From Cliona cf. orientalis (taxonomy: Eukaryota > Porifera > Demospongiae > Clionaida > Clionaidae), in NCBI GenBank assembly GCA_963930775.1, contig OZ005696.1:5518001-5582000 (forward strand): a DNA stretch of 64,000 nt, written 5' to 3'. Positions 36,251 to 50,817 of this stretch are shown here, in pieces; the stretch's first letter is position 1, and each line of letters opens with the position of its first letter. The notes beneath the pieces are model-generated. The model searched no databases and was not told where the DNA came from. It saw only the letters and a program-made list of their open reading frames with translations. The position numbers and the translations under genes are program-made.

Positions 36251-36706
36251 AGGGTACTATAATAGAAAGTATTAGCTACACACCTTCAAGCCCATTGTAC
36301 TTATAGATACACAGTTGCATACACTAGTTAATAAGGGTGTTAAATTCTCCATGGAAATAGGACTTACTAAAGCTGTTATTTTATTACACCTTTAATGCAT
36401 TGGGTACTAATTCGCAAATAAAGTCAGTCGTGTAACTGCTACATGTATATACTCTGGGTAGTGTTGTTTGAAACTAGTTCCCTTAAGGCTTGTCTGCAAG
36501 ATAATTTCCTTTTTTCTAGAAAATTGATAATCTTAAACAAATAATGTCATGCTTTCAATGTACACTAGCTGACTAGACTACAGAATATTTTTGTGGTTAT
36601 ATCATTTCTTGTTTTTTGTATTTAAGTAGACGATTACTAGCTAGTTGTATTCATTGAGTTTGGTGAAGTATAGTTTGGTGAATTTCTAATCCTTGACATA
36701 GTCTTC

Positions 36707-37216
36707 ATGGCTCAATCCTTATGCAATCCCTTTGACATACCTGGCCATACCTGGAGCAGCCGTAGAAAGAATCTCAGACCTGTCACAGCCTGGATGTGTG
36801 AAAGAGCTCCACATATTTCCATTGGTTCAAAGATCTGTGACACATGCAGGAAGAAGCTAAGTAAGGAATTACAGGATGTTACTGAGCCTATCCTCTCTGA
36901 GTCTGATCCTCCCAGTCCTCCTAGTTCACAAGCCACAAAATCTGATCCTCTCTTCTCCAGTGCTTCAGAAGCAGCATCTTCATTCAACATGTATCTAGCA
37001 GAAATCGGTGAGACACCATATTCTCAGAGTAAAGCCCGTTCAAAGAATTACTCCAGACAGAAGGTGAAGAAGATTAGCTACTGAAACTTTGCAGCGTACA
37101 GTTACGTTATCACAGGGGTGCCTATTGATGATGGAACTGAGATGATCCAGCAGCTGAAAGAGAAATTTCAGGAAACAAAGAAAAGAAATGAGCAAATTCA
37201 AGTGCTTACAGTTTTG
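36707..37216 (+). pseudogene. Outer-element transposase-like gene, 5' part (decayed, interrupted)
   Basis: ATG 36707 opens MAQSLCNPFDIPGHTW, then a Cys-containing segment (WMCERAP...ICDTCRKKLSK) and a Ser/Pro-rich linker, to a stop at 37084. Coding continues in shifted frames (ETLQRTVTLSQG, then EMIQQLKEKFQETKKRNEQI and QVLTVL) until 37216. There the 12.7-kb element interrupts it. After that element the frame resumes with PKSWS, giving VLPKSWS, a hallmark of a multi-copy mobile-element protein family I know from cnidarian and other animal genomes but cannot name with certainty. At least two frameshifts besides the insertion make it non-functional. Confidence 0.7.
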
Positions 37217-37240
37217 TACGGTGGCCGAGAGGGGCCATTC

Positions 37241-38627
37241 ACACAGCTTCAGACACCTTGGTGTACAATGTGTAAACTACTTTGTTCACTCTAGTTTACA
37301 ACTTAGGCTACACAGTTGTATACTGGACATTCCTATGCTGTACACCTTTTGTATGTAATAGATATCGCATGGTAGCTAGGCAGTGTATTATGGATTATAA
37401 AGCCCACGACCCCGAGGGCGCAGCCCGAGGGGGAGGGGCTTTATAATCCATAATACGCGTGCCTACCATGTGACATCTGATATATATCCTGATTGGTCAG
37501 TTTCTTAGTGTTTGTGTTTAGATGGTAGGAAATCGTTGGCTGGCATATTTTTAGTGCAGTGCACTATAGTGTTCACAGGGGATTATAATTGCCTGAGGGA
37601 GGTCAATATTTTAGTTATAACACCCCTGTTACCTAGGATACAAGGGTGAATCAGGATATATATGAACCAAATCTACTACAGCAGTAAACAGACATTGTAA
37701 ACTACCATTGTAAATGATTGTAGACTACTAGTAAACTTCAGGTTTACATGCATGCAGACTCAACATTGTAGATTTGATTGATGACATCATTAATTTTCAT
37801 AATTTCATTCCAAAAATCAATGAATATTATAATATTATGAATTTTTGATGTAGTCAGCCAACAAGGTTCAAACATAGTAACGTTCACAAGTCTTATAATT
37901 ATAGTGTTCAGATCCAGAAATATTCAAGATGCACCTGCAGGTCAAATATATAATATATTATAACCATCACAGTAAGTATTATAATCAGATTCTGTAGCAA
38001 ACGATAAACATTAGGAGATTAATTCCTAGAGTTATGTATACTCATGGTTGCACAGGCCATGAATTATTTGTAGCTACAAATACTAGGCATTTTTACAATC
38101 ATGACATTGTGCTATCAAAGAGAGAGACTTGCGTACCATAATAATTATTATTATAGTGGGAAATCTTCGCATGGTGCAAACTTCAGATATACAAATGGGT
38201 TGTATGCCGTAAAAATAAGAGGCGTGAAACTTTATTGGGTGGAGAAACCGTGACATCATGACCATACATGCAGCCAGCTATGTAGCTAAGCTGCACCGAT
38301 CAATACAAGATGTGTCTACCACTACTGATGAAATCCTTTGGCCTCTCTCTTTCTGATTCAAGAGGGCTACTGTTGGAGAAATTGACCCATCTTAGCAATA
38401 GTGAAAGGAATTGAAGCTAATTTTGTTGACAATAACAGTCCAGACATGCTTGTAAATGTAATAGCCTCTGACCATCGCTTCAAGCTCTACAGTAAAAGTA
38501 CATTATCTTAATCTGTGGTACTATAATATCTACAGTTGCTCCAGCGCGCTGTATGGTTAACAAGCAATTTCGTGAAATTTTGCACCAGTGAAAATTTCCC
38601 GCTATACAGTACCTATGGTTATATCCT
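37241..38627. other. Inner element, left non-coding end
   Basis: It holds a 103-bp palindrome (37368-37470; CATGGTAG...CTACCATG with centre CGAGGGCGCAGCCCGAG), probably a nested MITE. A cluster of TTGTAAAC/GTTTAC motifs lies around 37690-37755, echoed near the other end (about 48355-48460), which suggests subterminal binding repeats. No exon seen. Confidence 0.5.
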
Positions 38628-41326
38628 TCACTCACTTTCAAGGTCATGATCATTCTCGGCATCAGAATGTTGAGCTGCTACAGATGTCTTAACCGCCCAA
38701 CGGGGAGCTTCCTTTGGAGGAACTGATGTGGAGGGTAAACCAAGCTTCCTCTCTTTCTTAGCCACAAGACCTGGTGCCTCCTTGGCAGTTTTTTCCAGCC
38801 TTTTATCCAGAGCATGTATGAACTCGTTTAGTTCTATATAAATGAGCAAATACAGCAACATAAAGGCAAGGTTAGATTTCAAGTCTGCATATACTCACTA
38901 TCTGATCTCCATGGTAACTTGTGTATAACTAAATTGTTAGAATTTTCCGGGTCATCAGACTCTTCAGTCATGTATGAGTATGACATAGCTTTCCACAGTT
39001 TCATCTCCTTCTCAGTTACAACTGTTTCTCTCCTTTCATATTTCTGAAAATTGAACATAATACATGCACTAGTAAGATTGAGTTACTATAATACATCACA
39101 TCTATGGAATAAAAGCTTGACTGTGCAACCATGCCCACTCACTATAATATTATATGCCTGTAAATTTGTCTTTTCCTGGGAAGAATCCAGACTTATTATA
39201 TTGTGTACATGCAATGAGAATTATGTGGACACTGGAGAGAAATGCTGATAAAATAATAATAGCTTACTCTTTGTCGGCGGGATCGGTACTTTCTACGTTT
39301 TGATTGGTCTTCGACATAGTTTTCTTTACCCTCTTGACTCTCAGTGAAGGTCCTTCGAACGTTTTGGTAACAACGCTTCACTGCAGCTAAGAAAGATGGA
39401 TATATGATAAACATGTAGCAGAGATAGATCTGATTCAATGGCATACCTGCTACAGTCTCCTCTGCAAATTTGCAATTTGGCTGATCTAGGATATTTTGCA
39501 TGATCTTCTTCTTCACTTCCTGGTTGTGTTCTGCTGTTGAGCTGTGTAAAAAATAAATTAGTGACATAAATATCCTGGTTACATGATTATAAATCTTGTA
39601 ATAGAGCGGTGGGATGCAGGCTCCCAGACCCCCTGCAGATTAGCATCCAAACAATGACATATCCCAGTGAAAAAACCGGTGAAAGCCAGACTGACATTAA
39701 CATAAAGGATCCGGTTACTTCTCTTTACATCATGTGTGCAATGACATATTACCTTTCTTCTGGATTGAAGCCACTTTCCAAAGACTTGTGCACTTTCATA
39801 ACCTTATCCTACATCAACATAAATTAATATTCTCAAAGATGATGGTGGATTATAAAATCTACGACTGTACATTCATAGATACAGACAACAGAAGCATTAA
39901 TAATCAGTGAAGTGGGTGGTTAATACTCTGTACATGCATGATAGCTATATAGACCCATTGCACATGACGTCACGGAGCATGCACAGTGGGCTGCCCTGGA
40001 GGACAACTGGAGCCGTTTTCTATGGCGAAAATGTACAGAGACTGCCTCTGCCACTCGTTCGCAAAGAAGGTAAGTATCCATTTTTCTTGTGGTTGCAGTA
40101 TGTTAGACTAGCCATAGTGTGCTTCAAAGTATCATTGAAAATTTTAGTTGGCTGGCATCCATGCATAATGATAAAGCAATAGCACCATTTAGCGCTCGCT
40201 AGTACAAGTTTGCACATACAAGAAAAATCTGTAAAACGTCCTCCAATAGCTGCCATGTTGGAGTACAAGCGTCTATGTAATGGGTCTATATTACTATAAT
40301 TATGTGAGTAGAAATTCTCTTTGCAGATGCGGCTTTGTAGCAAAAATTGAGCGAGATCAAGTGTATATGAATTACATCATTGTTTGTGCAGTGCCATACC
40401 TCTGGACTGGTTTTTTGTCATGAAATTTAAAATTAAATACAGAGGGCCTCCCCAAATTACCTTCCATATTATGGTACTTTAATACCGTATAGCGGGGAAA
40501 CTTTCGAGGGAGAAACTTTTACGAATTTCGCAATTTTTCAGCCATCTGTGAAAGTTTTCTCCATGAAATTCTAGGCATGCCACACCCGTTATGTGACCAG
40601 TTTTAGCATTCTGCGAAAGTTTTCTCCATGAAATGCTCCTTTCCTACCGATCCACGAAAATGTTCTCCCTCAATAATTTCCCGCTATACGGTACCCTACA
40701 CCCTTTTCCAAAAATTTCCCTAAAATTAATATGCAACTTACAGAAAGATCTCTAGTAACAACACGTTTCCTCTTGCGACCAGAAGTATCATCGGATGACG
40801 GAGAAGATGTTGGCGTAGCTGCAGATAGACATTTCTGTTCTATTTCAGCTAGCTTTGCTTCAAATCGAGAATGTTTGTCTTGGAGAGCCTCCTGGCTTTC
40901 TAGTATGCGTTGAAGCATTGCCTGCTGTTCTTGTAACATTGTGCAAAAGTTCATGCCCCTGTCATCACGGCCACCATGATCCATCGCAAGGGAGTCTTGC
41001 CTATGACGCAATCGGCTTTGTGTAGGCTCAAAAAAATCAAATCTCGATGGCGTAGCATAGGATGAGTTTAAACCTAACATCCCGGATCCCAATGGTGTAC
41101 GAAGAGGCGACTTGTCCCTCCGCGTTCTCTCATCTTCCTCGTATTCGTCGTCAAATTCGTCACTTAGGCTAACACCATCTTTATCTTGCAATCTATCACC
41201 AGGGTTGTAGTGAGAATCCCTCTCCAAATATCGAGAAGTCTCACGTATTCGAGCGTTTGCTAGCGTCAAGGGAGTTCGATGGTTTGAGCTTGAGGACTTG
41301 GAGCCATAAAAACGCCTTGAAGACAT
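38628..41326 (-). CDS. Transposon accessory protein, 6 exons, intact (401 aa)
   Basis: Minus-strand exons in order: 41326-40742, 39808-39753, 39541-39447, 39386-39268, 39043-38899, 38833-38628. They sum to 1206 nt (401 codons plus stop) with matching phases and GT-AG borders. The N-terminal 195 residues are Ser/Arg-rich and acidic (DEFDDEYEEDERTRRDK), followed by a coiled coil (MLQEQQAMLQRILESQEALQ) and a basic nuclear-localisation-like RKRKR. The C-terminal half has HNQEVKKKIMQNILDQP, then VKRCYQNVRRTF, a basic KRRKYRSRRQRKYERR and WRSDKLNEFIHALDKRLEK. Such W-R-S...L-x-x-L-D-x-R endings occur in animal transposon-associated and C14orf93-like proteins; that link is from memory and weak. It lies divergent to the transposase, about 1.45 kb apart. 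It is probably a DNA-binding partner of the transposase. Confidence 0.75.
39948..40290. mobile_element. MITE in accessory-gene intron 1
   Basis: TATAGACCCATT at the left is mirrored by AATGGGTCTATA at the right. About 343 bp between exon 1 and exon 2 of the minus-strand gene. No ORF of interest. Confidence 0.65.
40483..40693. mobile_element. MITE with TACCGTATAGCGGG termini
   Basis: TACCGTATAGCGGGGAAA is mirrored by TTTCCCGCTATACGGTA with TA borders. The interior repeats GAAAGTTTTCTCCATGAAAT. It ends about 50 bp from the exon-1 donor of the accessory gene (minus strand). A partial relative (TTTCCCGCTATACAGTA) is visible near 38596-38612. Confidence 0.75.
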
Positions 41327-41682
41327 GGCACACCTTGACACTGAGATTCACCAGGCAGCTTCAAAACCCATAAGGGTGCAGGATTGGATCAATATACAAA
41401 ATATACTAAAATATATCACAAATATGCGTATAACTGTCTAACCAATGGATTATACAAATATACATAAGTATACCTCAAGTATGCGTATAATTGTCTAATC
41501 CAATACTATGCCTAAATATATAGTCCATATAATATGTAATTGTATCAGTGTTGAAGGCAAGTATAATTTGCATAAAGTGCATAATTATATAGACGTTATA
41601 CAACAAATATGCAATAGTATACCCTATACAGTCTAACTGTATAATGTATAATATGTATAATTAGTATACTATTAATTTCAAT

Positions 41683-42447
41683 GTCTGTGTCGCCTGTCAG
41701 ATAAAGTTTAATTGTCTGAGTCGCGTGTCAGATGTAGTTAAGTTTAGACGTCCGTGTCGAGTGTCAGACGTAATTAAGTTTAGACGTCCGTGTCGAGTGT
41801 CAGACGTAATTAAGTTTAGACGTCCGTGTCAGACGTAATTAAGTTTAGACGTCCGTGTCACGTATCAGACGTAATTAAGTTTAGACGTCCGTGTCACGTG
41901 TCAGACGTAATTAAGTTTAGACGTCCATATCCAATGTAATTATAACAACATCTCCAAGAGGGGCGAGATATGATTTTATGCAAATCGGACATTATACAAA
42001 TATACTGTATAATTATACATAATGTATACATGTAATCTAAAGATGTATAATTATGCAAATTATGCATTTTATACACCTCCAAGAGGGTGAGATATGACTA
42101 TGCAAATTAGACATTATACAAATATACTGTATAATTATACATAGTGTATAAATGTAATCTAAAGATGTATAATTATGCAAATTATGCATTTTATACACCT
42201 TTGAGAGGGTGAGATATGACTTTATGCAAATTAGACATTATACAAATATACTATATAATTATATATAATGTATAAATGTAATCTAAAGACGTATAGTTAT
42301 GCAAATTATGCACTTTATACACCTCCAAGAGAGTGAGATATGACTTTATGCAAATTAGACGTTATACAAATATACTGTATAATTATACATAATGTATAAA
42401 TGTAATCTAAAGACGTATAGTTATGCAAATTATGCACTTTATACACC
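41683..42447. repeat. Two tandem-repeat arrays between divergent transposon genes
   Basis: At 41683-41930 a unit of about 36 bp (GTCAGACGTAATTAAG + TTTAGACGTCCGTGTC) repeats about seven times. At about 41950-42447 a unit of about 124 bp (TATGCAAATTAGACATTATA ... GTAATCTAAAGACG ... GAGGGTGAGATATGAC) repeats four times. They lie between the start of the minus-strand accessory gene (41326) and of the transposase (42779). So they probably hold a shared bidirectional promoter and perhaps transposase binding sites. ATGCAAAT-type octamers recur in every long unit. Confidence 0.75.
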
Positions 42448-42778
42448 AAGGGAATCACAAAAGACTTAATATAGAATACAGTTATACAGTATAGTGTATA
42501 ATATATATTATAGTAATAAGAGAAGCACACTACTCAAATAGACAAATTATGCTGGTCATATACGAATTTAAGCTTTATTATACAGTATATTATACATATA
42601 ATATGTATAATTAAGTAATAAACCTTAATAGTATAATAATGTAAGAGTATAACTAGTATAAAGATCCATTACTGCACAGCTCTCTCAAAACCATAACCCG
42701 CCAAAAGTAGACCTGTCTCGTGATAGTCACATGTTTTGTGCGCACGCGCAATCAGCACAAAGGCTAAGAGAGCTGGAC

Positions 42779-45700
42779 ATGGCAAGTTCTACGACCAAGC
42801 GTTACTTCTGTGATCATTGTGAGCAGGAACTGTCGAAGACCTCGTACTTCAAGCATAAGAGGTTATTTTATGATCGAACGTCTGAAAGTTGGCAAAAGGA
42901 ACGAGTACATTACAACTTGACAGCTCAGAAGACTTCAAGGAATTCGAATTCCAAGAAACTGAACCATTTCAGCCTGAGAGATGTGATGCTAGTGAGTTTA
43001 GTATTCCACTACTCAAAACATGATTTAGCAAGGGTGGTGAGAGACACTGGATTTAGCCATCAGTAGTGTAATAAGGCATCATGTGTCTACTATGACTAGC
43101 CACACACCGCCGGTCCCCCCCCCCCCCCCCCGGGCTAGAAATCATGCTCATGTTTTGATCAGACATTGCTAGTACACAGTATAAGACTTTGTGGCGTTGC
43201 ATGGGGAATTTGATCTGTCATTTCAACAATTTGGTCGGAAAATATCTGATGACCAGCTGTTATTTCTAGCTCTGCCCTCCCCCCTCCCCCCAAAGAAATT
43301 GTGGTCTAAATCTAGCCCTTAATTAAAAACTTGACCGTATCTGTTCGTCACTTTATACTGCTGTTTATTAGAGATGCATTTTACATTTCAGATCTAATAG
43401 ACAACTTGGACACAGCAATGGACAATGAAAACTCAAGTGAGCATCTACATGATCCTGAATGTCCTACCAACAACTCTTCAAGTGATGAGTCTGATTTCGA
43501 CATTGTAAGTGTTCACATCTAATAGCCGCAGTACATATCTCATGCTGGCACACTACCAATTAAATTTTTATAGAACACCATATATACTAGGTAGGACAAC
43601 TTTTGGTAATAGTTTGTGGCATTCTTTCAAGACTGATTGTAAGGCGCATTATGTGGACATGGTTTGGGTAGAGCCTGCTATACCAGAGCTTTTCCCTGTA
43701 CCCCATTTTGTGTCAGAGAAATATCAGTGTACATTTTTGGGCATGCTTGTTTGCTAGTTCAAGTGTAATAATTGTGAATGTCTCATATTAACTTTGTGTA
43801 GGAGGAGCAAGATGATGATATGGTTGAAATTGTCTTTGATGAACTTGATTTAGAAGATACGAACGTTAAAGAAGCTGAAAAACCCAACCGTATCCTGCAG
43901 TTGTATCTTATGTTCCTCCTCACCTGGCAAAAGTTGTTTAGGATCTCAACTGTGGGTATGAACATACTCTTCAGGTTTATTGCTCTCTTCCTGATAACAC
44001 TAGCAAAGTTACTGGGCTTAACATCATTGCTAACCTTTGCCTCTACACTTCCCAAGAGTGTGGCTGCTGCTCAACGCCTTATCGGAAGGAAGGAATATTT
44101 TTATAAATGGGTCTGCTGTCAAAAATGTAGTACACTCTATTCAATTGAAGATGCAAAAAGGGTGTCGAATGGTACTTGCGTCTCCAAATTATGTGGTCAT
44201 GTGCGGTTTCCGAATCATCCACAACGTCAACATCGAAAATCTTGTGGTTGTTTATTACTTAAGACTGTTCGAAGCTCAGGGACTTCAACCATGCTTTATC
44301 CGAAAGCATTATATTGCTACCAAAGTTTGATACGCTCTCTAGAAACCATGTTGCAGTGTCCTAATTTTATCACAAAATGTGAATCTTGGCGTTTCAGGAG
44401 TACTTCCAGTGTTTTGAGAGATGTATACGATGGACAAATCTGGAAAGATTTCATGCACTATGATGGTCAACCCTTCCTTGCCCTTCCGTACAACTTTATG
44501 TTGATTGGTTCCAGCCATTTAAGCGTACGACACATTCAACTGGAGTTATATACATGTGTGTTCAGAACCTTCCTAGAAATGAACGATTTCTAAGTGAAAA
44601 TATTATACTAATTGGTGTAATTCCTGGACCTAATGAACCAAAATTGACAATCAATACCTACCTTGAGCCACTCGTAAAGGAGCTTCAGCGTCTATGGAAA
44701 GGAGTTGTGATGAAGAATGCAGCTGGGTCAGCTATCATCGTGCGTGCTGCTCTTACTTGTGTTGCGTGTGATATTCCGGCAGCAAGGAAGGTGTGTGGCT
44801 TTGTGGGCCATAATGCTCGACTAGCATGTTCTAAGTGTTTGAAAGTATTCGAGACTGAAGTTTTTGGTGATAAACCAGACTTTAGTGGCTTTGATAGGTC
44901 ACAATGGGTGCCACGAGAAAATTCTTCTCATCGTCAGTATGCATATGAGCACAAATCGTGTAATACACTCAGCGATCAGAAAAAAATTGAACGTGACCAT
45001 GGTTGCCGATATTCTGTTTTGTTGGAGCTACATTATTTTGATCCCATCAGGATGTGTGTCGTCGATCCTATGCATAATCTGCTATTGGGGTCAGCTAAGC
45101 ATATGGTATCAGTTTGGACTGAACTAAATCTCGTCACTTCACATCACTTGAAAATCATTCAAGATCACGTCGATTGCTTTGTGACACCCAGTGATATTGG
45201 AAGAATTCCAGGAAAAATTTCTTCTGGATTTTCAGGATTTACGGCAGAACAGTATCGTAATTGGACACTCATATTTTCATTAAGTGCTCTTAAAGACATA
45301 TTACCACGTCAGCACTTTGACTGCTGGCACTACTTTGTTAAAGCGTGCTACCTTATCTGCCGACGAGAAATTTCACTTGAAGAAGTGGAAGAAGCTGATG
45401 GTTACCTGAACTTGTTTTGTAAGAGGTTTGAAGAACTATACTCCAAAAAATACTGTACAATCAATCTTCATCTACATGGTCACCTGAAATCGTGCATTCT
45501 TGACCACGGTCCAGTATACTCGTTTTGGCTATTTGCATTCGAGCGCTTGAATGGAATTATGGAATCGTTTCATACCAACTGTCACGATGTGTCGCTTCAG
45601 CTAATGAGAAGATTTACTGAATTACACAGTCTTGGAATTGAATCATGGCCTCAAGAATTTCGACAAGATTTTGCACCACTATTAGAAAGCCACAAATACA

Positions 45701-46317
45701 ATAAAGGATCACTAATGCAATCGTCATTAGAAACACATATGAAGGAACACTGTGAGTCAGATTCAAGGATTCAAACTCTCCCTCCCGTGCTTGAGTGTGC
45801 TTTTGAGCCCCTACTTCTTGAATCTTTAAAGCGGACGATCATTCAAGCTAAGCTCATCTCTCATGATCGCTTTACGATTTTATCTTTAGTGTGTAAGTGT
45901 GGTGCATTGAAGATTGGTGATTATGTGCTTGGATCCAAAAAAAGCCGCCATTCTACATCATGTATTGTGATGGTGTGTCCTGACTTAACAGATAAATCGA
46001 AGGTTAATTTGGCCGAAATTGAGTTCTTTTTTCGTTGTGACGTTTGTGTATCATCTCACAGTAAAGATGTGGTTAGCTTTTGGTTTGTTGCTGTCAAATT
46101 ATATTCAGGCCATTTGTGTAAAGTATGGTTTGGTTCCCCCACAGAAGTGTGGTCAGCTGTTACTACTCCTGATATGCATTTTTTACCTCTTACATGTATC
46201 AAATCTCGTGTTGCTTACTGTAAAAAAACTGTTGATTTTGGTCGTGTAATAGGAAATGATTCTGTAATATTAGCTGTACCCCTCAGTTCTGGTGCATTTC
46301 ATTCTGATTCATGTTAA
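42779..46317 (+). pseudogene. tnp2/EnSpm-type transposase gene with one frameshift
   Basis: Exon A from ATG 42779 encodes a zinc-finger-like start (YFCDHCEQELSKTSYFKHKR); its 3' border is unresolved. Exon B is 43392-43504 (acidic, DESDFDI) and exon C is 43802-46317. Exon C reads FLLTWQKLFRIS, KWVCCQKCSTLY, CGHVRFPNHPQRQHRKSCG and DVYDGQIWKDF. Between about 44480 and 44503 the frame shifts, and VDWFQPF, IYMCVQNLPRNERF, GVIPGPNEPKL, VVDPMHNLLLGSAKHM and GPVYSFWLFAFERLNGIM follow, open to the stop at 46317. These are hallmarks of animal EnSpm/CACTA transposases (tnp2 family), whose cut-and-paste reaction uses DDE-type catalysis. Apart from the single shift the gene is open, so it is a recent loss or a sequence error. 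Confidence 0.85.
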
Positions 46318-46456
46318 ACCATAGATAATAATTATATCAATACAGTACAAAGTACAAGCGTTAAACGTGCATTGAGCTTTGTCACGTGAAAGGCACATGG
46401 ATATGCCTGCTGTTTGAGTTTTGCGCGCGCCAATCCCGGGAAGGGAGCTAGCCAAC

Positions 46457-47640
46457 ATGGAGAGTGTTCGAGTACAAAAGAAACGTAGGAACAAGGATCG
46501 ACGGCGTCGCAGAAGCCTAAAGCAAAGACTCAACCATCAAAAGGACGTACTTTTAGATGAATTGCATAAAGCTCACGCTGAAAGGGATATCTTGATGACC
46601 ACAGCTGCTAACTTAAAAAAGTATGGCAGTGAGTTCTCTAGCTCTCTCACACGTACACACACGCACACAATATGTATTTATTTATACAACGATCACTGAG
46701 CACTGTATAAACGTTCCCTCTTCATTGCTGCCCCTGCAGAGAATGTGCATTGCTCAAGGCAGAATCAGCATGTGTGCGAAGCCGAGCTACGTGCACAAAA
46801 GCCACCACTATGTTTGCATCCCGATCAACTCGCAACTCATCATTGCCTTCCAACATTCGCCATATTTCTGAGCCTGATATAAAACATGACTACAAGAATC
46901 GTGAGTTAATCGGAAAAGGAACATTCGCTAAGTGTTATTTAATTCAGATGGGTGCTATGAAGGTGTGTTTTAAACAGCTGTCAGCAGACACTAAGTACAA
47001 GTCCTTATTTTACACTGAGGCTAGGATTCTTTCAGAGTTATGTCATCATAATCTTCCATGGCTGCATGCATTCTGTGATACCTCAAATGTCACAGCAATA
47101 ATAATGACCTTTCACCCTTATAATCAAGAACATAATAGATCGTTGAACATCTTTGATGCATTATACTGTGCACAGCAATACGGGGATGTGTCAGTTACTG
47201 TATGCGACTGGAAACAGGTTCTATTAGGCTCCACATCTGCGTTAGTGTACCTCCAAGCTAAGGGCATTCTGCACAATGATATTAAGACTGATAACATACT
47301 AATTGAAAGATTATCTGGCAGTGATGTGCGATCAGTACTTATTGATTTCAATAAGGCATGTCATTCAGATGAGGGTCAGGTGTACAAACTGTCACATAAA
47401 GAGAAGGATAAATATGCAAAACATCATCCACAGGTAGCTCCAGAAGTCCGTTGTGGAATCGAGAAGCAATCTTTTGCCAGTGACATGTATTCTTTTGGAA
47501 GAGTCCTACACAAGATCAACAGCAAAGTATTGCAGATTCCATGCCTTGGTAGTATGTCGGCCATGTGCTTAAGTGTGAAATCTAGTGAGCGACCCAGTGC
47601 TAATGAGCTTAGCACCTTTCTTGTTAATTTGTTCACATAG
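46457..47640 (+). CDS. Basic coiled-coil plus protein kinase fusion, intact, transposon-borne
   Basis: Two exons, 46457-46620 and 46740-47640 (phase 2 join, AA|A = Lys), 354 aa plus stop. Residues 1-75 are strongly basic then helical (KKRRNKDRRRRRSLKQRL, LLDELHKAHAERDILMT), like a DNA-binding region with a coiled coil. A protein-kinase domain follows: glycine loop GKGTFAKCY from about residue 113, lysine in KVCFKQL, alpha-C Glu in FYTEARIL, catalytic HNDIKTDNIL (HRD as HND), metal-binding LIDFNKA (DFG as DFN), APE in QVAPEV, SDMYSFG and SSERPSA. Most residues needed for catalysis remain. The ATG is 140 bp after the transposase stop. Similar 'LHND(I/L)K..N(I/V)' kinases are multi-copy in cnidarian genomes as I recall. 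Its role is unknown: regulation of transposition, or phosphorylation of host factors, are guesses. Confidence 0.82.
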
Positions 47641-48535
47641 CTACTAGCTATAATTATTCATAATTAACATTTTGTTATTTTGCAATAATAATGATGACAT
47701 TGTATCATGGTAAATAATAATTATTAATAATACTGTAATTCATTATTAACACTGGCTGTTGTAGCTTACACTTGATAATGTTATACCCAGGTTGAATGAT
47801 GAGAGATGGTGGTGTGGTTGGTAAAGTAGGTGGCCGAAACGGGTTTGGGCAATGTTTTGCCTTTGAACCTGTGTCTGGCCAGTTACTATAATAATTATTG
47901 TGTTATAATAATAATATTATAATGAGCATACAAGCTTAAAGTTTTGTAATGAGCATGTAGAATGATGTAAGATTATTAGTACTTCAATAATAATATTATG
48001 CCAATTCTGAATAGTAATCTGGCCGAAATGGGTTTGGATACACATCTTTGAACCTATGTCTGGCCAGTGTATAATAATAATTATGATGAGCCTCCTGTAA
48101 TGCATGTATGGTGAGTGCATAATAATTATTGAGCATGCATGCTTGCATGGGCCAAGCTATAAGCAATAATTATTATAATAATTGTGTTGTTGGAAAACTG
48201 GTGCCCTAGCTATCTCAAGATTATTTACAGTAATGTGGCTTTATAATAATAATAATAATAATAATAATAGTAATAATGCAATATCTCTATAGAGGCTGCT
48301 GAATAATAACAGATATAATTAATTTTTGTATAATAATATTATTTCACTGATGTGTGTAAACTATAACGTATAGCATTGTAAATGCTACATATGGAGGCTA
48401 CAAATTCGTAAACTTTTGATACATGAAGTTTACACCTGTTGTAAACTTTCAGTTGTAAAACATTGTATACTAGCCTGAAACCTTCAAGTATACGATTTTG
48501 TATACTGTTGTAAAACACCCTCTGTTGAGCTGTGT
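47641..48535. other. Inner element, right non-coding region with repeated pieces
   Basis: AT-rich. GGCCGAAACGGGTTTGG ... TTTGAACCTGTGTCTGGCCAG (about 47832-47882) recurs slightly diverged at about 48020-48068. A (TAA)n run is at about 48244-48270. TTGTAAAC-type motifs at about 48355-48515 mirror those near the left end of the element. No gene. Confidence 0.5.
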
Positions 48536-48680
48536 CAATTGTCATTTTCGATACTTTCCAAACTTGACAATTTCCAATTTTCAAAGTTGCATATTTCCAA
48601 ACTGGATTATTTCCAAAATTGCATTTTTCCAACTTCGATCGTTTCCAAAGTTTTATATTTCTAAAGTTACATGCATCTCT
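48536..48680. repeat. TTTCCAAA array, left copy of an inverted pair
   Basis: (T)TTCCAAA recurs every 16-19 bp about seven times (TACTTTCCAAACTTGACAAT, ATATTTCCAAACTGGATTAT and so on). The array is matched in inverted orientation by about 49700-49850, which runs up to the right terminal repeat. A few more copies lie at 49428-49480. Confidence 0.75.
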
Positions 48681-49699
48681 AATCCTTGATGCCGCCGCGC
48701 TTTACTAGGCGTATGGGGTTGGGTAGTTTTGTTGCCGGACCAGACCACTCCCTCTGCAGCGCTAGATCATCAGTGTATTGCCACTAACGGACATTCCGTG
48801 GCAGCGCTGCGTTGGGACGAGACTAGGGGCAGGAGCAGCTGTCCGAGTCGGGCGCTTTGCTCTCGCTTATTACGTATGATAGTAACAAAAAGGACATTGC
48901 ATACACTTCGTAAACCATTGGTAAATTTATGGTGGGTGTGGCTTGTATTCGTAGACGTTTCATACAATGTCATGAATTCTTCGGTGGGTGTGGTTTGTGG
49001 ATTTAGCTCTTGCGTTTAGCTAGTTACTCAACTTGCATTATGCATCTTTCCATTTTTGAGTATTTCCATTCTTATCCATTTCTGTTATTTAGCATTTCCA
49101 TACTTCCTGATTTCCATTCTTAGGGCCAATGAAACTACATTATTAGTTTCTCGTCCACCCGTGTTTGTATTTTCATGCGGGCGGGCGGTCATTATTCACT
49201 ATTCATTATTCATTATTTTGGCATTTTGGGGGTGTGGCTTCCTGGAACCGCCCAATTAATTAACAAAATGGAGGCGTGGCTGGCATTTCAAGGCAATAAT
49301 GAAGGCAGATGCGGTAGGTTGAAACACTGAGACGTGGGCGGGGACGAGAAACTAACAATCAAGTTTGTGTGGCCTAGCTGGTCAAAGAACTCTAGCTTCC
49401 TATCATTGGCTATGGAAAATTATTGCATTTCCAAAGATATAGATTTCTAAAATTTATATTTTCCACACTTTAGGTATTTCCAACTCATTCACGTCATATC
49501 CATACCACTGTGCGTATTCGGTTGCACACTACTAAAGTGCGCATGCGCACCAAATATTTACCAGCGAAGCGAAGCTCTCGGCGACTACGCCAGTCCGATC
49601 CCATAGTAGCCACGTCCCCAGATTAAGGGTGGGGGTCTGAGGGGGGGGGGGGGCGAGACTACGTCCCCAGCCTCCTCAGGTTCTGAGTGGGATCCGATC
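48681..49699. other. Between the TTTCCAAA arrays: no gene seen
   Basis: About 1 kb with a GC-rich part and (CATTCATTATT)-like repeats near 49190-49215. No convincing ORF on either strand. Confidence 0.45.
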
Positions 49700-49850
49700 A
49701 ATAACTTTAGAAAATTACAACTTTGGAAACGATCGAGTTTGGAAATGATACAGTTTGGAAAAATACATCTTTGGAAATAATAGAGTTTGGAAAAATGTAA
49801 CTTAGGAAATTGGAAATTATCAAGTTTGGAAGGAATCAAGATTGACAATT
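49700..49850. repeat. TTTGGAAA array next to the right terminal repeat
   Basis: This is the inverted partner of 48536-48680: ACTTTGGAAACGATCGAG, GAGTTTGGAAATGATACAG, CAGTTTGGAAAAATACATC and further units. It lies within 25 bp of the terminal inverted repeat, which is where transposase-binding subterminal repeats would be expected. Confidence 0.75.
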
Positions 49851-49874
49851 GGATGGCCCCTCTCGGCCACCGTA

Positions 49875-50817
49875 GTTTTGCCTAAGAGCTGGTCAGGGAA
49901 GAAAATACAATATTAGGAGTTTGCAATTGGTGTCTCGAGTATTTGGTATGGCAGTCAAAGAAGCTAGTAGAGGAGAGAGGCATTCTTTCTCTTCCTGCTC
50001 CATTACGTGGACCTTCACTGCCATCAGAAACAGTAGACACTCTTTGTATGTTCTACGAATCTGATGATATCAGTCGTGTAACGCCTGGAAAGAAAGACTT
50101 CGTATCAATGAAAAAGGATGGTGAACGTCAGCATGTTCAAAAGCCATTGATTCTGAGCAATCTGAGGGAGGTGCACCGTGAGTTCAAGGAGAGATTTCTA
50201 GATTGCAAAGTTGGATTCTCAAAATTTGCTGAACTGAGACCTAAACATTGTGTTTTAGCAGGAGCGAGTGGTACACACTCAGTATGTGTGTGTGCAATAC
50301 ATCAAAATATCAAGTTGATGTCATTCGAAATGCAGATACCTGAGCTACCAACATACCACCACTGTTTAGCAAAGATAATATGCAATCCTCCACATGCTAG
50401 ATGCTATTTGGGTGAATGTGATGTCTACCAGCTGTTTACTTTGGGTATTGTAGCAATGAAGATTATGCAAAGGAATGGAGTAGTTTGGAGCAACGCTTTC
50501 AACTCCCACGCACGATCTCTGGCACAAGAAAACTGCACTCTTTTGTACCAATCTCCAATAGCACAGTGGAAGTCAGACACTACTCAGCCTCAGATGCATC
50601 CAGGAAAGAGAGAGTCACTCTAGCAAAGAATGACATTCCACCGGAATCAATTGCTGGGTTTGTCACTTGTCTATATGAATGGAATTGGTGGTTAGCTTAT
50701 GTGCTTGAAGTCTGCAGTGATACCAAGAAAGTGAAGCTGACATTTCTGCATCCTCAAGGTCCCCCAAACTCAAGTATCCAGAGCCCCGCAATATTCACAA
50801 CATACCAACCACTGGCG
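49875..50817 (+). pseudogene. Outer-element transposase-like gene, 3' part (decayed)
   Basis: It restarts at the duplicated GTTTTG with PKSWS, meets a stop (TAG) and a frameshift within 80 bp. It is then open from about 49943: WQSKKLVEERGILSLP, TPGKKDFVS, GFSKFAELRPKHCVLAG and GTHSVCVCAIHQNIKLM, up to LGECDVYQL. The part after about 50450 seems shortened. A final frame (about 50485-50817) with GFVTCLYEWNWWLAYVLEV and VKLTFLHPQGPP looks like the family's C-terminus. Together with 36707-37216 this is one pseudogene. The usual central catalytic region appears to be deleted. Confidence 0.72.

Follow-up and report, generated by a model that had tools for sequence, protein, structure and literature searches.

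CACTA/EnSpm transposons are described in PMC4158355 as having a two-open-reading-frame anatomy and a 3-bp target duplication, and their cut-and-paste movement by a transposase acting at the element ends is given there as established for the family. IS3EU elements are characterized by TAYGG..CCRTA ends and 6-bp duplications in the account of PMC12730594, and by TA..TA ends and 6-bp duplications in that of PMC10045372. That a DNA transposon carries a kinase gene has a precedent, since fungal TET-bearing IS3EU elements contain an alpha-kinase gene (PMC12730594). In the Mos1 mariner, phosphorylation by the host PKA is reported to control transposase activity and nuclear entry (PMC3902898). In the open-licence literature we found no description of an ordinary protein kinase as a recurring gene of CACTA/EnSpm elements; such a description may exist elsewhere. 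Here we analyze a locus of the sponge Cliona cf. orientalis where a protein kinase gene lies beside a tnp2-type transposase gene. It is part of a 64,000-nucleotide stretch (GCA_963930775.1, contig OZ005696.1, positions 5,518,001 to 5,582,000), hereafter the window, which belongs to contig C8 in our numbering of the 217-Mb genome. The window copy of the kinase-bearing element is referred to as locus A, and other loci by further letters.

Nested organization of the locus

The original prediction had read the locus as one 12.7-kb transposon. According to our analysis it is, almost certainly, an 11.3-kb CACTA/EnSpm transposon that inserted with a 3-bp duplication into a ~1.4-kb IS3EU-type transposon, itself inserted into a gene with a 6-bp duplication. 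An empty site is preserved in L005 (C1:13473503-13474909), a ~1.4-kb relative with TACGG ends at both positions and no interrupting block. Across the joint, L005 reads ...GGCCATTCA|ATTGTCATTTTCG..., its right side starting with ATTGTC; the window reads GGCCATTCA, followed by 11,293 extra bases and then by TCA and ATTGTC.... The inner element sits 25 bp into the outer one (Table 1), the remainder of which matches L005 at 84-89% identity over positions 48535-49123, 49375-49568, 49566-49696 and 49697-49874 and contains an inverted repeat (48536-48668 versus 49719-49851). The stretch at 49124-49374, which has inverted ends and is absent from L005, may represent yet another, small insertion.

The transposase, the kinase and the accessory gene all lie within the inner element. 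The combination of a tnp2 transposase with a 6-bp duplication is therefore no longer puzzling, because it is the TCA-flanked inner element that carries the transposase, while GTTTTG belongs to the outer one. Flanking duplications of the kinase's own, which had been named beforehand as a sign of separate insertion, were found in part, in that TCA encloses transposase and kinase jointly. A second copy of the inner block, copy B (C1:31547819-31554514), is ~95% identical over the shared pieces and has the identical CTGTG terminus at its right end, and no TACGG end (up to 4 mismatches) was found in the 20 kb around it. The nesting shows that two ordinary elements can mimic a new superfamily.

The inner element shows several features expected of a CACTA element, namely CAC..GTG ends (CACAG...CTGTG in the window and CACTG...CAGTG in relatives), a 3-bp duplication, a Transposase_21 match, a DDE triad with C/H motifs as read by eye, and repeated motifs near the ends. 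All 7 GTTTACA/TGTAAAC motifs are confined to the first 507 and last 180 bp of the inner element; this motif was picked post hoc, after inspection. Two points count against the explanation given here. The terminal inverted repeat is short, with 7 bp perfect and 10 of 14 positions matching by count, and the left end of copy B was searched for and not found. Ten loci, the window among them, were also searched blindly for CAC..GTG pairs that have a 3-bp duplication and match at 11 or more of 14 terminal bases. The one candidate, in locus I, was rejected as it differs from the real end of I. The search misses the inner element of the window because its inverted repeat is short.

The outer ends behave largely as first described. 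TACGGTGGCCGAGAGGGGCC is present at 37217 (+) and 49855 (-), and the inverted arms extend over 25 nt at 96% identity, the initial 22 nt being perfect as claimed. The GTTTTG duplication was likewise recovered on both sides. When the flanks are joined without the insert they form an open reading frame (...QVLTVLPKSW...), and C1 has an uninterrupted relative of this gene to which the joined sequence aligns with no gap at the joint. This bears out the claim of in-frame restoration; the outer ends therefore arrived as a single insertion. The interrupted gene (window 36674-37216 and 49881-50623) has this related uninterrupted copy at C1:25749482-25750019, and may therefore itself be a repeated gene.

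Ends of this type are far more frequent in the genome than chance would give, as 576 sites (289 forward, 287 reverse) lie within two mismatches of the 18-mer end, compared with 7 sites (1 forward, 6 reverse) for its reversed control. Ten further inverted pairs, 1-2 kb apart, were taken from the first of these sites to be listed, the choice being made before their flanks were inspected. An exact 6-bp duplication flanks seven of these ten; in the remaining three, the shared sequence is 7 bp in one, 5 bp in another and 6 bp with a single mismatch in the last. Among L001-L008, five pairs are complete, of which by eye two have exact duplications and three have a 6-7-bp match offset by 1-3 bases. 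The TACGG..CCGTA termini fit the TAYGG..CCRTA of fungal IS3EU/GingerRoot members, the duplication has the 6 bp expected for this group, and no transposase gene lies within the 1.4 kb. By its ends and duplication, the outer element is thus classified as a non-autonomous IS3EU-type element. Looking for further copies with these ends, as had been proposed, confirmed the 6-bp duplications and failed to confirm the link to the kinase: among 25 exact TACGG sites, only the window's pair has a kinase locus (of the 35 merged loci described below) within 30 kb, as judged by eye. At L008 (C1:18473229-18473398), the right end of a TACGG element occurs three times in tandem at 75 bp spacing, 9.5 kb from a left end.

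Genes of the inner element

The transposase of the window matches Transposase_21 at 3e-14, above the curated cut-off. The DDE triad and the C(2)C and H(3-4)H motifs, as defined in PMC12730594, are legible by eye in the alignment (DWFQPF, CDIPA, CSKC, HLHGH, FER). The predicted tnp2-type gene is thus present and is not intact: in comparison with three relatives, the frame switches from 2 to 1 near 44485-44497 and no intron accounts for it, so that the window transposase is probably broken. The transposase of copy B is broken at another place, and copy B also has a 0.5-kb inversion.

The kinase gene, with a Pkinase match at 9.8e-18, comprises two exons that together encode a predicted protein of 354 amino acids, the splice sites being our reading. 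Its frame is open in both the window and copy B. The kinase is intact, as first claimed; a fusion to the transposase was rejected, the two being separate frames.

An accessory gene was also found inside the element as had been predicted, on the minus strand and in two exon pieces. These match locus C at 1.6e-14 and 4e-13 and locus N at 1e-7 and 3e-4. The open reading frame (ORF) at 40673-41347 has 31.5% identity to the corresponding ORF of C (1.1e-14) and 97.4% DNA identity in copy B; we read it as a further piece of the accessory gene.

Table 1. Positions of the two nested elements, their duplications and their genes in the window.
Feature	Position	Strand	Basis
Outer 6-bp target duplication GTTTTG, left copy	37211..37216		Adjoins TACGGTGGCCGAGAGGGGCC; empty site known
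Left 25 bp of outer non-autonomous IS3EU-type element (TACGG... end)	37217..37241	+	25/25 bp identical to L005
Inner 3-bp target duplication TCA, left copy	37239..37241		L005 comparison
Inner CACTA/EnSpm element, 11,293 bp, ends CACAGCTTCA...TTGAGCTGTG (CACAG...CTGTG)	37242..48534	+	Empty site in L005
Accessory gene, two exon pieces (...YMTEESDD...LPWRS / ...FIHALDKR...PPKEAPRWAV...)	38628..39082	-	Pairwise matches to C, N
Coiled-coil-like ORF (...RVVTRDLSVS), pointing away from transposase	40673..41347	-	Matches C and copy B
Tandem repeats, 29-36 and 122-124-nt spacings	41688..42469		Inside stretch absent from copy B
Open frame 5' of transposase (MASSTTKRYFCDHC...), candidate 5' exon	42662..43066	+	
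Transposase N-terminal part, frame 2	43802..44497	+	tblastn with C, H, I transposases
Transposase catalytic part, frame 1 (Transposase_21)	44485..46317	+	Pfam match; tblastn with C, H, I transposases
Kinase gene exon 1: arginine-rich, then coiled-coil-like stretch	46457..46620	+	Similar stretches at I, K; splice sites are our reading
Kinase gene exon 2: protein kinase domain to stop	46740..47640	+	Pkinase match; intron 46621-46739
Inner 3-bp target duplication TCA, right copy	48535..48537		L005 comparison
Remainder of outer IS3EU-type element, up to ...CCGTA	48535..49874	+	Piecewise match to L005
251 bp with 33-nt inverted ends	49124..49374		No match in L005
Outer 6-bp target duplication GTTTTG, right copy	49875..49880		

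Recurrence of the kinase with the transposase

Both genes move as a unit, as is evident from three further copies with CACTG ends and matching 3-bp duplications. Two of them, I (C1:9229105-9242010) and J (C6), are ~99% identical, hold transposase and kinase, start with CACTGGGCG and finish with CAGTG, and are flanked by CTA/CTA and AAT/AAT, respectively. The third, M (C6:5326717-5336857, 10.1 kb), also holds both genes and has a CAT/CAT duplication and CACTGGACGAA inverted ends, with terminal repeats of 11 bp perfect. Locus K (C2) is a copy of M at 99.5% identity, and a third M-type copy on C3, compared at one end, has the same right end. Loci C and G have an exact CTGTG end in common. Searches found no ends for H and no left end for C, and D has a CACAGCTCAA end directly past its kinase, for which no left partner was found.

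Kinase loci were compiled from all 34 matches of one search and the best 33 of 87 matches of another and merged to 35. The search behind the 87 matches scored 148 of 282 candidates and another genome search 71 of 211, so that counts are lower bounds. A tnp2 locus lies within 3 kb of 14 of the 35 kinase loci, whereas only 0.84% of the genome lies within 10 kb of a tnp2 locus. A general set of 129 PF00069 matches, representing the best-scoring kinases (125 of 2,399 candidates scored), included none within 10 kb of tnp2 and one within 30 kb. Chance neighbourhood of a common domain is therefore disfavoured by the absence of these best-scoring PF00069 matches within 10 kb. A fifteenth linked kinase (C1:33700138), outside the count of 14, adjoins a transposase at C1:33698412. 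For two further loci, C and its copy G, the link becomes visible when the copies are compared. The transposase and kinase of C are parted by an insertion of 11 kb (C6:311907-322897; ends AACAGTATCC...GGATACTGTT), which is absent in G, where the kinase stretch continues directly from the last ~50 bases of the transposase frame.

The three genes co-occur in all six lineages that were read with transposase and kinase (A, C, H, I, K/M and N), in varying order. A, C, H and I have the kinase downstream, K/M have it upstream, and in N it is on the opposite strand. Accessory-gene matches connect all six lineages. The coiled-coil ORFs of H and N show no significant likeness to those of A or C, the link being the other exon, and the accessory exon gives no significant match for A versus I or A versus M, the connection passing through N. 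Because the same three genes recur together in divergent CACTA elements, the kinase is a repeated, old component of one group of them rather than one accidental capture. The suggestion of an undescribed lineage of kinase-bearing transposons has thus shifted: no lineage with TACGG ends, 6-bp duplications and a kinase was found, and the kinase recurs in divergent CACTA lineages instead.

Loci E (C4) and F (C1), covered by L016-L019, are related ~10-kb loci with a kinase of this group and no Transposase_21 match. The ORF beside their kinase has no Pfam match and looks to us like the N-terminus of a different tnp2-like transposase. Forty-four of 77 Transposase_21 matches are on C1 (37.5 Mb, 17% of the genome), which may be a transposon-rich or special chromosome. 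On C12 (7938110-7985652), a cluster of four alpha-kinase matches was observed, one of them ~3 kb from a distant tnp2 locus at 7974063.

Conservation and phylogeny of the kinase

Six kinases (A, C, D, E, H and I) show no change at the catalytic Lys and Glu, the HxD Asp, the Asn or the DFx Asp, with C, D, E, H and I being 41-56% identical to the kinase of the window. The catalytic residues are also present, by eye, in K and N. Across nine kinase sequences, invariance is limited to the Asp and Asn of the catalytic loop and the Asp of DFx, the Lys and Glu varying owing to the truncation of G and a substitution in F. At the DFG motif, A, C, D and E have DFN, and H, I, K and N have DFG. Between A and B, identity amounts to 98.5-98.9% in the kinase exons and 98.8% in the transposase core, compared with 93.5% in the 3' non-coding part. 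An arginine-rich and coiled-coil-like stretch is found at or before the kinase start in A, I and K. Acidic serine-rich stretches occur in the transposase of K (ESESESDSETED) and in the accessory protein of A and C (YMTEESDD).

Tree tests were performed with one member for each of the six lineages; the clades were named after seeing the trees, and branches are long. The kinase tree places H as sister to I (support 98/99). With the transposase data, I groups with K (100/99) and H + I is rejected (p 0.009); rejection of I + K by the kinase data is no more than marginal (p 0.048). Since the two trees conflict, kinases may have been exchanged between elements, which is the simplest reading. The H transposase (L022/L023, C1:36923385-36925910) reads FKRYNG where the other aligned sequences read FERxNG, in an open frame; with its last triad acidic residue apparently a Lys, it may be inactive.

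Other features of the window

Further frames with domain matches were observed in the window outside the nest. The frame at 2653-3453 matches an ephrin receptor ligand-binding domain, and a 536-amino-acid ORF at 9835-11445 matches DUF3504, Phage_integrase and QRICH1 and resembles a tyrosine recombinase.

Discussion

Taken together, the likely explanation of our data combines the nested anatomy, a three-gene CACTA group with the kinase as an old component, and phosphorylation of the element's own proteins, which we infer. The different parts of this explanation differ in strength. That the kinase is a selected component of these elements is likely. How it might act can be proposed only tentatively. 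We posit that the enzyme would have a basic, coiled-coil N-terminal portion that might direct it into the nucleus or to the DNA-protein complex formed by the element. At that site it could phosphorylate the transposase and the accessory protein of its own element, in which acidic serine-rich stretches occur, and this phosphorylation might set when or where transposition occurs. Such element-borne control is conceivable because host phosphorylation of Mos1 shows control of this kind to be possible (PMC3902898). It is likewise possible, if somewhat doubtful, that a large animal CACTA group carries its own kinase as a selected third gene, exchanged as a module, which by phosphorylation switches transposition or acts on host defence. 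To our knowledge, this would be the first CACTA element carrying a kinase for self-regulation.

Several observations weigh against this explanation. More than half of the kinase loci (21 of 35) lie away from tnp2, some of which look like host kinases or fragments. The kinase is also far from universal, most tnp2 relatives being without a detected one: it was found within 10 kb in at least 14 of the 58 loci found with the window transposase and at least 14 of the 88 tnp2 loci overall. D, E and F have the kinase, with no accessory-gene match at 0.01 and no Transposase_21 match nearby. The left end of K is damaged, has no CAC start and no recognisable duplication, and the window copy may not move itself, given its broken transposase frame. 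In F, the helix-C Glu is replaced by Lys, and G is truncated and lacks the N-lobe. The ratio of nonsynonymous to synonymous changes (dN/dS) of close pairs is 0.17 in A/B (10 changes), 0.35 in E/F, 0.55 in I/J and 0.60 in C/G, with no changes in K/M; these values are unremarkable, based on few changes, and not decisive. A motif search recovered the basic stretch in 2 of 10 loci (A and I), that of K lying within its own frame. The conflict between kinase and transposase trees appears to speak against a strict partnership of the two proteins, and the regulatory role itself is a proposed one.

The tree conflict would also fit a cargo that is useful with any transposase, and thus a counter-defence role, the main rival to our explanation, in which the kinase targets silencing or DNA-repair proteins of the host instead of proteins of its own element. 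An analogy is offered by the TET/JBP accessory enzymes of fungal transposons, for which PMC12730594 describes passive spread between lineages that are not related and a presumed action against silencing; their presumed benefit is escape from methylation. Such a role for the sponge kinase seems unlikely on present evidence, as nothing in the sequence points to a host target.

Capture of a host kinase, once or more, by CACTA elements that then carried it along functionless is less plausible still. CACTA elements are known for picking up gene pieces, many of the kinase loci are fragments or contain stops, the order of the kinase gene varies between lineages, and F has lost its helix-C Glu. However, a mere passenger would not be expected to keep its catalytic residues invariant in six kinases that are only 41-56% identical to that of the window, and of the proposed roles that of a passenger agrees least with this conservation; moreover, the kinase exons of A and B are better conserved than the adjoining non-coding DNA, and the kinase has been retained in six divergent lineages. 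Finally, a single 12.7-kb transposon with 22-bp TACGG ends and 6-bp duplications, representing a new kinase-bearing lineage, is rejected in that form, for although the outer ends and duplication are real and paired with each other and the whole nest could in principle have moved in as a unit, the inner empty site is exact, the inner element has CACTA-type ends and a TCA duplication of its own, copy B lacks TACGG ends, and the other TACGG pairs inspected are mostly 1-2 kb apart.

If self-regulation by the kinase holds true, a transposon that supplies the kinase itself would amount to a self-contained control circuit, and to a simple test case for how the timing of movement, or the response to host defence, is set. 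Some odd kinase genes in animal genomes would then be transposon genes and not host signalling genes.

Comparison with known systems

The inner element resembles CACTA/EnSpm elements (CMC group) in its CAC..GTG ends, 3-bp duplications, tnp2 transposase, second gene and repeated motifs near the ends, and differs from them in having a protein kinase as a third gene, compared with the usual two open frames. The outer element is similar to IS3EU/GingerRoot in its TACGG..CCGTA ends and 6-bp duplications; it differs in being non-autonomous, with 1.4 kb and no transposase. The alpha-kinase of fungal IS3EU elements belongs to a different kinase family and occurs in elements unrelated to CACTA. A closer parallel in terms of recurrence is provided by fungal TET/JBP-bearing DNA transposons, some of which are EnSpm, where a gene for an enzyme is repeatedly found next to the transposase and seems to cross lineages (PMC12730594); there the enzyme is a dioxygenase in fungi, whereas here it is a kinase in an animal. 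The Mos1 transposase, as portrayed in PMC3902898, is under phosphorylation control like that proposed here, with the difference that its kinase is the host's and not the element's.

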